The translations under genes were made by a program, and so were the position numbers. Below are positions 39,962 to 57,526 of a stretch of DNA of 59,226 nucleotides, one piece after another; the stretch's first letter is position 1, and each line of letters starts with the position of its first letter. The notes under the pieces are model-generated. The model was not told the origin of the DNA. It saw only the letters and a program-made list of their open reading frames with translations, and did not search any database. Source of the DNA: Candidatus Aminicenantota bacterium (GTDB lineage: Bacteria; Acidobacteriota; Aminicenantia; JAMOAD01); the NCBI GenBank assembly GCA_027061995.1, contig JAMOUT010000012.1, positions 1 through 59,226 on the forward strand. Direction: 5' to 3'.

Positions 39962-41353
39962 ATGAAAGTAATTATTTTCATTGGGGACGACAGTGTATCA
40001 ATTAGAAAAGTTATACAATTGGCTATAGGTGAAAAAGATTATGAAGTTAAATTTTTTAATGACGGGGACTCTCTTTATGATGCTATTAGTGAGAAAAAAC
40101 CGGATTTTCTTTTTTTAACACCCTCTTTGCCTGGTAAAGGGGTAAATTATCTTTTTGAAAAAGCAAAAGAAAAATACGGAGACGAAACAAAAGTTATTCT
40201 TATGAAAGGAGCTTTTGAAGAGGAAGGGGGTCCTATTAATGAATCTCTTTTTGATTCCGTTCTGTCAAAGCCTTTTTCTTCTGATTCTTTTGAAGAACTG
40301 CTTAATTCTTTTTCAGAGAAAACAAACGATGATTTTTCCTTACCTGAAGAGGATGAAGAATACGGAGAGGATGAAATGGATTTACCGGAAGAAAAGAAAG
40401 AAGAGATACCCCAAATAGAAAAAGAAGATACTCAGTCAAATACAAAAGAAAAACTTTCCATAGGAGATTCCATGGGAATATTTTCGGGAAGAGAGGAAGT
40501 TGCTCCCAATGACGATAAAACAAGAGAGAGTTCTGTTAGTTTACACACGATGAAAGAGCAAGAGGAGCAAGAGGAAGATATTGACAATCCTTTTTTTGAT
40601 GATAGCGGGAAAGATTTGAATTTTTCGGAGACGGCAGAGGAAACAGCTTCGGAAGAAGTTTCCGATAAAGAATCGTTTGATGATATTAAAGATGATTTTT
40701 TTTCGGAAGACAAAGAAGATGTTTCCGTAGAAAAGGCTGAAGAGAATAAAGAAAGTTTTTTTGAAGAGGAAAAAACAGAGGATGTTTTCAATGAGGAGGA
40801 AAGTAAAAAAGAGATAGAGGTGGATTCTTCCGAACCCGAGGAAAAGGAAAAAATGGTTTTTGAGGAACAGGGTTCCGTTGAAAAAGAAGAAGCTGTAGAA
40901 AAGGAAGAGGAGGCAAAAGAAACTGAAACAGAGGAAGTTTTTGAAGAAGAGACAAAAGAAGCGGAAGAGAAGGAACAAATATCAGCCGAAGAGGAATCTG
41001 GCGTAGAGATAGAAGAGAAAGAGTATAAGAAAGATAATTATTATGACAATGAAGATAAGGATATTTCAACTTTTCCGACTCAGAAAGTTGACGAAGATGG
41101 AAAAACAGCGGTTTTTAGGGAAAAAGATTTAAAAGAAGAGTTGGAAAAACAAGAAAAAAAGGAAGAGATAATAAAGGAAGAGAGTGCGACGGACGAGATA
41201 TCAGAAAATAAAGCTTTGGTTGAAAATCAGGTAAAAGAAAAAATAGAAGAGATTTTATGGGAAATAGTTCCCGAGATAGTTGAAAAAGTTATCAGAGAAG
41301 AGATAGATAAAGTTAAGGAAGAATTGGTTTCTCTTAAAGAAGAAGAGGAATAG
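39962..41353 (+). CDS. Pseudo-receiver protein with acidic repeat region
   Basis: A 463-aa protein. Residues 1-120 look like a CheY-type receiver: acidic pair DD at 9-10, and SKPFSS with the conserved Lys near 101. The phosphoacceptor position in PDFLFLTPSLPG carries Thr rather than Asp, so phosphorylation is unlikely. About 125-410 is a disordered, Glu/Ser-rich segment. The tail (about 420-460) is amphipathic: KIEEILWEIVPEIVEKVIREEIDKV. The arrangement recalls FrzS/AglZ-type motility proteins, a weak analogy. Ribosome binding site AGGAGG, own promoter, next to valS. Confidence 0.6.
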   Translation: MKVIIFIGDDSVSIRKVIQLAIGEKDYEVKFFNDGDSLYDAISEKKPDFLFLTPSLPGKGVNYLFEKAKEKYGDETKVILMKGAFEEEGGPINESLFDSVLSKPFSSDSFEELLNSFSEKTNDDFSLPEEDEEYGEDEMDLPEEKKEEIPQIEKEDTQSNTKEKLSIGDSMGIFSGREEVAPNDDKTRESSVSLHTMKEQEEQEEDIDNPFFDDSGKDLNFSETAEETASEEVSDKESFDDIKDDFFSEDKEDVSVEKAEENKESFFEEEKTEDVFNEEESKKEIEVDSSEPEEKEKMVFEEQGSVEKEEAVEKEEEAKETETEEVFEEETKEAEEKEQISAEEESGVEIEEKEYKKDNYYDNEDKDISTFPTQKVDEDGKTAVFREKDLKEELEKQEKKEEIIKEESATDEISENKALVENQVKEKIEEILWEIVPEIVEKVIREEIDKVKEELVSLKEEEE

Positions 41354-49073: not shown

Positions 49074-49104
49074 TGATTAATCAACCTTTATCATTATTTG
49101 ATAA
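49074..49104. promoter_or_regulatory. Operator-like palindromes
   Basis: TTGATTAATCAA (49074-49085) is a perfect 12-bp palindrome, followed by TATCA-N5-TGATA (49090-49104). Both share a TGAT/ATCA half-site and overlap or abut the promoter at 49099. This is a candidate repressor site for the island genes downstream. Confidence 0.45.
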
Positions 49105-49128
49105 ACACCTTTTGATATGCTTATATTA
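49099..49128 (+). promoter_or_regulatory. Promoter of the island's first gene
   Basis: TTGATA (49099-49104), 18-bp spacer, TATATT (49123-49128), followed by AAGGAG and the ATG at 49149. Confidence 0.5.
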
Positions 49129-49327: not shown

Positions 49328-50380
49328 ATGAGTGAAACTAAAAATGAATTTTTCGGTAAAAACTTGAGTGAATCTTTGAAAAAATGGATTGAAAACCGGA
49401 AAATTGAAGTCCCGCTTGATGATGGAAAAGTTTTTGAAGCTCTTAAAAAAGGGAAAACATCGGGCTTGTATCTTCTTGACGATAATTATGCGAGAAAACT
49501 TTTGAAAGAGTTTAAACCGGAAACATTTAAAGACCTGTTTTTATTTGTGGCAATCTACAAAGCTTACAATATTCTCTATGATAGGGAAATGGTTAAGGCT
49601 TTTTTAAAGGGTAGGAATAACCCGGCATCAATTGATTATATTTATCCTGAGATTGAATCTATTATTTCCGAAACATACGGTATTATTCTTTTCAAAGATC
49701 AGATTGAAGGGATTTTCACAAAAATCGGCGGACTTTCAGAGAAAGATTCCGTAAAATTCAGAAAAGCTTTCGGAAAATTAGACCTATTTGAGATTAACAA
49801 ATATGGTAAAAAATTCATTGATGGCGGAGTGAAAAAAGGGATTGATAAAAATACATTAAAGAAAATTTTAAAATTATGTGCTGGTTATAGAATCCCCCAA
49901 TTGGAAAGAGGCTATATAATGGAATTAGCATTCTTGATTTACATTCAGCTTTATTTTAATGAGAATATTATTAAGTATATAAAAGAAAAAAAGCAAAAGC
50001 CCATCTGTATTTCACATATTTTTACTAATATTGAGGATGAAAAATTTTTAAATAAACTTAAAAGATGGGTGAAAAAGAATGGCTGCTCTATGATGGACGG
50101 AGAAGGAGAGAGCATTTCGGCAATTGATTTTGACATCGCAATTATTGACAGAAGAAAGATTGATAAAAAAGCATGGGACGGATATGTGGCTTATACGGAG
50201 GAAGTTAATTCCAAAGGTGGGAAGGGATTTATAATTAAGGATGATCCCTTGTTAATTCTTTACGATAACATAAGGGATTGGAAACTTCCGAATTTAACCC
50301 GCATATTCCAGATAGAACCCGACTCCAAAAAAGCGGATAATTTTATATTAAACATTTTAAACAATTATTTGAAATTTTAA
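49328..50380 (+). CDS. DnaE fingers-like protein with extra C-terminal domain
   Basis: A 350-aa protein. Residues about 20-220 resemble only the fingers region of bacterial DNA polymerase III alpha (DnaE): KVFEALKKGKTSGLYLLDDN, LLKEFKPETFKDL, YPEIESIISETYGIILFKDQ, VKFRKAFGKL, FIDGGVKKGI. The PHP nuclease, the palm with its catalytic aspartates and the C-terminal OB/tau-binding parts are absent. In family sequences the fingers also keep LYRPGP and GYGFNKSHA; here they are IYKAYN and GYRIPQLE, so function must differ. Residues about 225-350 form an unrecognised alpha/beta domain (strands ending in PICISHI, DFDIAIID, GFIIKDD). GGAG lies upstream. A decayed dnaE remnant is less likely because the frame is open and the tail is novel. 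Confidence 0.7.
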   Translation: MSETKNEFFGKNLSESLKKWIENRKIEVPLDDGKVFEALKKGKTSGLYLLDDNYARKLLKEFKPETFKDLFLFVAIYKAYNILYDREMVKAFLKGRNNPASIDYIYPEIESIISETYGIILFKDQIEGIFTKIGGLSEKDSVKFRKAFGKLDLFEINKYGKKFIDGGVKKGIDKNTLKKILKLCAGYRIPQLERGYIMELAFLIYIQLYFNENIIKYIKEKKQKPICISHIFTNIEDEKFLNKLKRWVKKNGCSMMDGEGESISAIDFDIAIIDRRKIDKKAWDGYVAYTEEVNSKGGKGFIIKDDPLLILYDNIRDWKLPNLTRIFQIEPDSKKADNFILNILNNYLKF

Positions 50381-50391
50381 GGAGGAGAGTT

Positions 50392-51176
50392 ATGGGGAAC
50401 ATTAATGTTTTAGGTTATTCGGAAAGGGGAGTTATTAACTCCATCTTTTACGAAATTTTGTATGGTGATAAGCCTGTTGAATTTATTAAGAATTTTTGAG
50501 TAATATTAAATTTGTTGATGATGATAACAAAAACAATGAAATTGGGATTATCACTCGAGTTAAAGTTTTGATTGAGCAATCATTTTCGGATTTTGGTGAT
50601 GCGGATATTGTAATATTAACAAAGGATTCATTCGATAATAAAAAAGCTTTTTTTATAGAAGCTAAAGTAAGAGTCTTTAAGAAGAATTGGAATCTGTAGA
50701 AAACTTTCATTAATGAGTTTATAAATAAAATTAGTCAAGATAAAAATGAAGTTACTTCAAATTTATTTTCTCAGCTTTATTTAAAAAGCGTATTGGTTCA
50801 AAATTTATCAAAATGTGAAGTTGTAAACTTAAAAGTTGAGATGGACGAGTGTTTTAAAATAAAGAGAAGGAATAAGAATGATAGATCAAGGAAAATCGGG
50901 GAAAACGAAGTTGTATTAAAAGCGGTAGAAGAATTGAGAAACTATTGTAAGAATTCGTATTTTATAGCTCTAATTCCTGAAGAGAATGAAAATATTGAAA
51001 GTTTTATAGAAACCTTCAAAACGAAAATTCCTAAGTGCGGAACACAAATCTTAAAATATTGGAATACTAAAAATTGGGGATTTATTTCATGGAAGAATGT
51101 TCATGAGCTGTGTGAGAGATATAAGCTTTACAATCCATTGGAAGTTTTTAACTGGAATACAGGACAAATTTATTAG
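50392..51176 (+). pseudogene. Disrupted PD-(D/E)XK-type protein
   Basis: A ~260-codon reading frame broken twice. It starts MGNINVLGYSERGVINSIF with a GGAGG ribosome binding site, then needs a -1 shift at a T5 run (about 50493-50498), and has an in-frame TAG (50697-50699) before running on to 51176. The central GDADIVIL...FIEAKV segment looks like a PD-(D/E)XK core. The two lesions suggest decay; programmed recoding is a less likely alternative, because the site before the first stop (GAATTTT) is not a good slippery heptamer. Confidence 0.7.
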
Positions 51177-56221: not shown

Positions 56222-57526
56222 ATGAAAGGTGCGGTAAAAAAAATAATACTTGAGTGGCAGAATTTGGAAGTTTCAAACCTTAAGGAGAGAAAATACAAGC
56301 TTTTATACACTGATGAAATAAATGCTGTTTACGGAATAAGGAGGAGCGGAAAATCATATTTTCTTTTCTTGGAGATTGAAAAACTTAAAAAACAGGGGGT
56401 TCCGAAAGAAAATATTTTATACTTGAGTTTTGATGATGAAAGAATTAGAGATATAAAATCAGAGGATTTAAGTTTGATTATTGATTCCTATTATGAACTT
56501 TATCCTGAAAACCTGAATAAAAGGATTTATCTTTTCTTTGATGAGATACAGGAGATTAAAGGATGGGAGAGTTTTATAAAAAGATTATATGAGAGAAAAA
56601 AGTATCATGTTACTATTACCGGCTCATCTTCAAAACTTTTGGGAAAAGAGATCGCAACTTCACTAAGAGGAAGAACCCTTAAATATCACATCAATCCTTT
56701 GAGTTTTAAGGAGTTTTTGGAGTTTAAAGGTATTCAGATTAATAGAAATGATGCTTTTTCGGAAAATAGGTTTGAAATATTAAAATTACAAAAGGAATTT
56801 TTAATTTTCGGGGGGTTTCCGAGAGTTGCACTTGAGAAAGATAATAATTTAAAAAAAATCCTAATAAAAGATTATCTTGATTTGATAGTTTACAAAGACA
56901 TCCTTGAAAGATACTCAATAAGAAATCCTCATCTTATGAGAATTATTATTAATTATGTTTTGAAAAATTTTGCATCCGAATTTTCAATTAGTTCATTTAT
57001 CAAAAAATTCAAAAATGAATACAAACTTAACAAGGAAACTGTTTTTAATTATTTTTCATATCTTGAAGAGAGTGATTTTTTGCACTTTTTAATGAGATTT
57101 TCGCATAGAATTCATCAGAATTATTTGAGTAAAAAGAATTATATTGGCGATAATGGTTTTTTTTCGATTGTCACTTTTGATGATTTTGACAATTTTGGAA
57201 GATACTTTGAAAATCTTGTTTTTACCGAACTTATGAAAACTAATAAGGAAATTTTTTACTATAGGGGAGATAACAGCGAAGAATGCGATTTTGTTTTAAT
57301 AGATGAAAATTCAAAGGTTTTAATTCAAGTTGCATACTCGGTTGAGGATGCTGAGGTAAGGAAAAGAGAAATCAGGGGTTTGACTTCGGCAATGAAAAAA
57401 TTCGGTGTAAAGAAAGGATATATAATTACTTTCGGCACCTATGAAGAGTTGGAAGTTTCAGATAAAAATATAATAATTATCCCTTTCTACATCTTTTTCG
57501 GGACTGAATCTTTTTATTCATTGTAA
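56222..57526 (+). CDS. AAA ATPase with DUF4143 domain
   Basis: ATPase of the AAA_14/DUF4143 type (434 aa). Walker A YGIRRSGKSY (about 36-45), Walker B YLFFDEIQEI (about 102-111), and the sensor TGSSSKLLGKEIATSLRGR. The C-terminal DUF4143 domain (about 210-400) ends with a restriction-like fold: FYYRGDNSEECDFVLI and VLIQVAYS. Function unknown; such proteins are common in accessory islands. No Shine-Dalgarno is clear. It has its own promoter. Confidence 0.85.
   Translation: MKGAVKKIILEWQNLEVSNLKERKYKLLYTDEINAVYGIRRSGKSYFLFLEIEKLKKQGVPKENILYLSFDDERIRDIKSEDLSLIIDSYYELYPENLNKRIYLFFDEIQEIKGWESFIKRLYERKKYHVTITGSSSKLLGKEIATSLRGRTLKYHINPLSFKEFLEFKGIQINRNDAFSENRFEILKLQKEFLIFGGFPRVALEKDNNLKKILIKDYLDLIVYKDILERYSIRNPHLMRIIINYVLKNFASEFSISSFIKKFKNEYKLNKETVFNYFSYLEESDFLHFLMRFSHRIHQNYLSKKNYIGDNGFFSIVTFDDFDNFGRYFENLVFTELMKTNKEIFYYRGDNSEECDFVLIDENSKVLIQVAYSVEDAEVRKREIRGLTSAMKKFGVKKGYIITFGTYEELEVSDKNIIIIPFYIFFGTESFYSL

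Follow-up and report, generated by a model that had tools for sequence, protein, structure and literature searches.

The ORF P0001 encodes a protein made of the fingers of the polymerase DnaE and a C-terminal alpha/beta domain, and apparently represents a very rare, undescribed, real protein rather than a broken gene. Quite possibly, though still tentatively, it belongs to a family, very small and so far undescribed, in which a non-catalytic mimic of the DnaE binding surface in the fingers, together with a receiver-like partner, would compete for or sense the ligand of the DnaE fingers. Positions refer to the window, i.e. the whole stretch of 59,226 nucleotides analysed here, and comprise the following features:

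49089 to 49118, forward strand: promoter block TATCATTATTTGATA-AACACCT-TTTGATAT, a pattern match upstream of P0001
49149 to 49262, forward strand: 37-aa leader ORF (MGKLKEFYDTATEKGKRCIERFFKTLEEKKFVRINFE), located 3' of the promoter block and 5' of P0001
49317 to 49320, forward strand: Shine-Dalgarno-like GGAG, 7 nt 5' of the ATG of P0001, from sequence
49328 to 50380, forward strand: P0001, 350 aa with ATG start, a fingers-only DnaE-like protein with a receiver-like alpha/beta domain (ORF, profile and structure searches)
49328 to 49990, forward strand: fingers domain of P0001, residues 1-221 (PF17657 at 27-171)
49991 to 50377, forward strand: C-terminal alpha/beta domain of P0001, residues 222-350 (homology to the stand-alone 134-aa P0003)
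50393 to 51176, forward strand: broken nuclease-like gene with a frameshift and an in-frame stop, directly 3' of P0001
51449 to 56147, forward strand: restriction genes, namely PDDEXK_4-like (weak match), McrB-like AAA_5 and McrC (profile search; context)
56222 to 57526, forward strand: AAA_14/DUF4143 protein, PADLOC candidate PDC-S01 (profile search and PADLOC; context)

Domain structure of P0001

The sole Pfam match of P0001 is PF17657 (DNA_pol3_finger, residues 27-171, E=4.1e-29), which places its N-terminal half inside DnaE. Several DnaE models of NCBIfam match in the fingers stretch alone (model positions ~510-765), and searches of the PDB by sequence and by fold give significant matches exclusively to Pol III alpha. 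The AlphaFold model of the fingers reaches a pLDDT >90 across most of residues 31-185, and all 14 Foldseek matches of the P0001 model below 1e-3 belong to Pol III alpha. PHP, palm, the (HhH)2/clamp-binding motif and OB were found in P0001 neither with Pfam nor with NCBIfam, whose matches are restricted to the fingers. The palm family PF07733, which carries the catalytic aspartates, has no Pfam match in P0001 or in its relative P0002 described below. Inside the fingers of P0001, RPGP is replaced by KAYN and FNKSHA by RIPQLERGY; R145, G149-K150, Q125 and T116/G118 are retained. The motif R-x-x-x-G-K, located near the nucleotide site in DnaE, is present in both P0001 and P0002, and the net charge of the fingers is +11 in P0001 and +3 in P0002.

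Because the palm, PHP, the clamp-binding region and two fingers motifs are missing, P0001 alone is, judged by its sequence, unable to polymerise DNA; absence of polymerisation after such losses follows from established Pol III biochemistry. The window's genome possesses a separate, intact full-length dnaE (1157-aa frame). Both this genome and that of the relative, JALVQI01, contain an intact dnaE and one palm domain each, inside that full-length gene, and no second or orphan palm is found in either. The preliminary description of P0001 as a fingers-only DnaE-like protein without palm or PHP, with replaced hallmark loops, its own ribosome binding site and an alpha/beta tail of ~125 aa, is borne out on all these points.

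The C-terminal domain

The tail of P0001 (~125 aa) can be counted as a genuine separate domain, since a stand-alone homologue of 134 aa, P0003, exists in JALVQI01. Residues 222-350 have no confident library match. AlphaFold predicts an alpha/beta fold (pLDDT 74) for P0003 together with the window's domain, and the top Foldseek/PDB matches of this model are mostly CheY-like receivers (best E 0.013, probability 0.98, TM ~0.42-0.58); weak matches of the domain in viral sequences, too, repeatedly are receiver proteins. With moderate confidence, the predicted fold looks like that of receivers, which are (beta-alpha)5 flavodoxin-like. The novelty ascribed to this domain in the preliminary description holds for its sequence, for which no family was found, but its predicted fold resembles a CheY-type receiver.

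Response_reg of Pfam does not match P0001 up to E=10, nor P0003 up to E=1. Of the receiver residues, only the Asp that closes the third strand is common to both proteins (D274 in P0001, D53 in P0003). Since neither the acidic pair that follows strand 1 nor the Lys of strand 5 is conserved, the domain would be at most a degenerate, phosphorylation-independent receiver. Weak Pfam matches to Gemin6_C and Imm74, and matches to phrog_18227 and phrog_12610, are taken as chance. Elsewhere in the window (39962-41353), a 463-aa protein possesses a receiver-like N-terminus, with GDD after strand 1 and TPSLPG at the place of the phospho-Asp, followed by ~300 very acidic, low-complexity residues.

Homologous genes in JALVQI01

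JALVQI01 (Candidatus Aminicenantes) belongs to the same family as the window's genome and to a different genus. Its P0002 (199 aa) consists of the fingers domain end to end (PF17657, E=9.1e-33), aligns to residues 589-780 of E. coli alpha, retains RPGP and has VCSKKA at the position of FNKSHA. P0002 is 23% identical to P0001. P0003 is a complete protein, homologous to the tail of P0001 with 27% identity (BLASTP E=4e-17 in a single comparison). P0002 and P0003 are located on one contig, 2.4 kb apart on the same strand, and both are intact. A search for homologues with the same domain pair had been proposed; both domains do occur in JALVQI01, but as separate nearby genes, whereas they are fused in P0001.

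The space between P0003 and P0002 holds a two-gene unit (L032:8188-10194, forward strand). One gene encodes a nuclease-like protein of 232 aa without family match (DLSFYN...IELKAH), the other a 434-aa metallo-beta-lactamase/RMMBL protein.

Origin and divergence of the fingers

In the tree, P0001 and P0002 group with the DnaEs of the family to which they belong; their branches are long and the support is modest (85/77). Among the matches listed from 142 genomes of the class, those closest to P0002 are likewise DnaEs of its own family. The fingers of both proteins are apparently derived from the DnaE of their own bacterial family.

At 14 positions, P0001 and P0002 agree on a residue that is seen in <15% of 44 DnaEs of the class, and six of these positions are columns in which 43-44 of the 44 DnaEs have one and the same other residue (Q49L, L76I, V126I, M127E, F187Y and T207Q in P0001 numbering). 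This agreement on rare residues argues for common descent after leaving dnaE, with hydrophobic convergence as a possible contribution. Near-invariant DnaE columns are retained at 23 of 70 in P0001, 31 of 70 in P0002 and 46 of 70 in a second, diverged polymerase of DnaE type from the same class. To judge by these columns, the constraint linked to catalysis is relaxed in P0001 and P0002, the residues lost being those that polymerases need. Divergence is unevenly distributed: towards its end, the fingers domain of P0001 can hardly be recognised (7-22% identity), and P0002 shares 41-63% with the family DnaE in residues 64-113 and 11-37% at both ends.

Neutral drift of the host's own fingers DNA to 31% identity produced a mean of 10.9 stops, and the frame remained open in none of 500 runs, compared with the real frames of P0001 and P0002, which are both open. 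The P0001/P0002 frame is probably under selection, and simple decay is unlikely because the relative's genes are intact, rare residues are shared, no simulated frame stayed open and a promoter block is common to the genes. The same had been argued from P0001 alone, and the gene in the relative agrees with it, being precisely bounded and intact and not a random truncation of dnaE.

Promoter block and leader ORFs

P0001, P0002 and P0003 are preceded by the consensus TATCA[CT]TATTTGATA-N7-TNTGATAT. In five genomes of the family, this 30-bp pattern has exactly four perfect matches, i.e. at P0001, P0002, P0003 and a 218-aa gene on the JALVQI01 contig, a count that is partly circular as the pattern was written from these same sites. 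The 15-bp core is present at other genes too; the second half is free of mismatches at those four genes only. Between block and gene, P0003 possesses a short leader ORF (MDKIISEIKK) in the same place as the 37-aa leader ORF of P0001.

The core is contained in a wider promoter type of the family, in which a TATAAT-like hexamer comes exactly 12 bp after the palindrome TATCA-N5-TGATA (or TGCTA). This element recurs 5' of unrelated genes in four family genomes, with sites in the window (49089-49103) and at loci L032, L036, L037, L041-L049, L051 and L052. It is a candidate for a clade-specific regulon or an alternative promoter type. Its other targets include an AddA/UvrD-like helicase, small hydrophobic peptides and a lipoprotein-like protein; an SOS box was rejected, these targets being mixed and without sign of a LexA regulon. 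Four such promoters (L037, L043, L044 and L045), in four genomes, precede a good ribosome site and a hydrophobic peptide of 28 aa (MLFYEILIFFFITEFFLIAEYLKSKREN and similar sequences), which represents a small, conserved membrane protein without annotation.

The 218-aa protein behind the same 30-bp block in JALVQI01 (L032:4642-5298, reverse strand) is of unknown family. A homologue (47%) occurs in one more family member (G003:C182) and none in the window's genome. It may be a third component.

Genomic neighbourhood

P0001 was first described as heading a restriction island. A setting among defence genes is found at both loci, but P0001 lies beside the restriction operon, of which it is at most a putative part, with the broken gene and ~270 nt more intervening before the PDDEXK_4, McrB and McrC genes. 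The C-terminal part of the broken gene is related to a PD-(D/E)XK-like Aminicenantes gene with FIEAKV. Relatives of this broken gene in two other Aminicenantes genomes are located beside a near-identical gene of 433-435 aa on the opposite strand (L159, L160). The downstream nuclease was rejected as partner of P0001, its relatives in other Aminicenantes adjoining this unrelated 435-aa gene.

Four relatives have tdh at 77-88% conservation, and upstream of it neither P0001 nor McrBC is found in any of the four; the block is therefore specific to the window's genome. In JALVQI01, the surroundings of P0002 and P0003 contain PD-Lambda-5 A and B, AbiEi/AbiEii, PDDEXK_4 and HD proteins. Both loci are situated inside defence islands but with different systems, and a link with McrBC is not general, McrBC being absent from the JALVQI01 island. 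The position among defence genes (an association of n=2) hints at involvement in conflicts with mobile elements. P0001, P0002 and P0003 match no model of PADLOC-DB.

Distribution

The pair of fingers-only and C-terminal domain is known from two genomes, the window's genome and JALVQI01. Further matches of the C-terminal domain are absent from 396 genomes of the phylum, genome contigs, viral contigs, phages and plasmids. Pattern scans (P0001 against genome contigs; P0001, P0002 and an alignment of the C-terminal domain against viral contigs) returned nothing beyond JALVQI01. In 100 relatives, among the matches listed from 142 class genomes and among the best matches listed from 396 phylum genomes, no other short fingers frame is as clear as those of P0001 and P0002, and none of 80 viral DnaE loci has a short closed frame around the fingers. 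P0002 has thousands of matches in phages and plasmids; a reading of these as fingers-only proteins was rejected, the three annotated phage matches examined being whole, long or split polymerases.

To our knowledge, the replicative Pol III alpha is generally described as a whole polymerase only. A literature search by Pfam name and accession of the fingers family returned no relevant paper. Two surveys that cover bacterial polymerases systematically mention, in their available sections, no protein consisting of fingers alone (PMC3919608, PMC12926913). According to these sections, one survey removed fragments without polymerase active site (PMC3919608) and the other discarded short and truncated sequences (PMC12926913), and stand-alone fingers therefore had little chance of being reported there.

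Possible function and alternative explanations

The globular C-terminal part of the clamp-loader subunit tau contacts residues 657-667 of E. coli alpha, which lie in the fingers (PMC4703070). By alignment to E. coli alpha, an equivalent of this loop is present in both proteins (~96-104 in P0001, ~74-82 in P0002). The similarity of P0002 to DnaE peaks in this loop and the residues that follow it, whereas P0001 lacks such a peak (25-29% there). With the fingers fold kept, isolated fingers could present the DnaE surface as a binding mimic. They might occupy the host ligand of the polymerase fingers, for which the globular C-terminal part of tau is the best known candidate, or they might intercept a DnaE-targeting protein of a phage or mobile element. 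The receiver-like domain would transmit or tune the effect of the fingers, either fused to them as in P0001 or encoded, as in JALVQI01, by its own gene downstream of the same promoter block. A more specific version, a bait-and-transducer conflict system, is improbable as it stands: the fingers copied from the cell's own polymerase would act as a stand-alone decoy, luring proteins with which phages or mobile elements seize Pol III, and the receiver-like partner, whether fused or separate and under the same promoter element, would report or enforce the response. If the gene is selected, isolated fingers would show that single domains can be taken from a replicative polymerase and used as binding modules. 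They would also be a ready reagent for finding the proteins in contact with the fingers of Pol III, be it tau, the clamp loader or takeover proteins of phages.

Binding could also serve regulation unrelated to phage conflict, for instance in a DNA- or nucleotide-binding, phosphorylation-independent response regulator with the fingers fold as output. The charge of +11 in P0001, the R-x-x-x-G-K motif kept in both proteins and the receiver-like look of the C-terminal domain fit such a regulator, but P0002 has a charge of just +3, the receiver acidic pair and beta5 lysine are not conserved, and both loci are in defence islands; we consider it somewhat unlikely. A host fork regulator that competes with DnaE for tau under stress, and came into a defence island by accident of horizontal transfer, would agree with fingers derived from the family's own DnaE and with the tau contact site in the fingers (PMC4703070). 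It is unlikely, being absent from other family members despite their closely related DnaEs.

Decay, i.e. a truncated copy of dnaE that is being lost and was fused by chance to a neighbouring ORF, would explain the sporadic occurrence, the broken gene directly 3' of P0001 and the barely recognisable last part of its fingers. It is hard to reconcile, however, with two intact genes in two genera that each have a start site of their own and share the promoter block, with a C-terminal domain that recurs near the second fingers copy, with open frames where neutral simulation left none at the same divergence, with a fold predicted at pLDDT >90 for most of residues 31-185, and with derived residues common to P0001 and P0002; we regard it as improbable, too. 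Least probable is that P0001 is the fingers half of a split polymerase, complementing a palm-bearing half as in phages with dnaE split at the palm/fingers boundary. The second DnaE gene of Rossellomorea phage phiT1 does start where P0001 and P0002 start, and a comparable frame is seen at locus L123 of the viral scan, yet neither genome holds an orphan palm, the clamp-binding, OB and C-terminal parts are missing, and P0001 has lost RPGP and FNKSHA. A fingers mimic with a receiver-like partner remains our preferred reading of P0001.

Comparison with known systems

The C-terminal domain resembles CheY-like receivers in its predicted beta-alpha order and in the Asp that ends the third strand (D53 in P0003, D274 in P0001). 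It differs in lacking a Response_reg match, the acidic pair and the beta5 Lys, and the fold match is weak (E 0.013). ImuB, according to the available sections of two papers, is a catalytically inactive Y-family homologue working with DnaE2 (PMC12926913, PMC3919608). The likeness to ImuB is one of concept only, that of a dead polymerase relative acting by protein contacts; ImuB belongs to a different polymerase family, occurs in LexA-regulated cassettes and has no sequence relation to P0001.

Split DnaEs are known from Rossellomorea phage phiT1 (gp20/gp18) and Tenacibaculum phage Larrie. In phiT1 (L061), DnaE is split into two genes with a 49-aa ORF between them, and the break lies at the palm/fingers boundary. 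Unlike P0001 and P0002, the second halves in the phages run several hundred residues past the fingers and the first half is next door. Whole DnaE is matched by P0001 and P0002 in the sequence and predicted fold of the PF17657 fingers, which apparently descend from the DnaE of their own family. Both proteins differ from it in the absence of the PHP, palm, clamp-binding, OB and C-terminal parts, in the loss of RPGP (P0001) and FNKSHA (both) and, for P0001, in the extra receiver-like domain.
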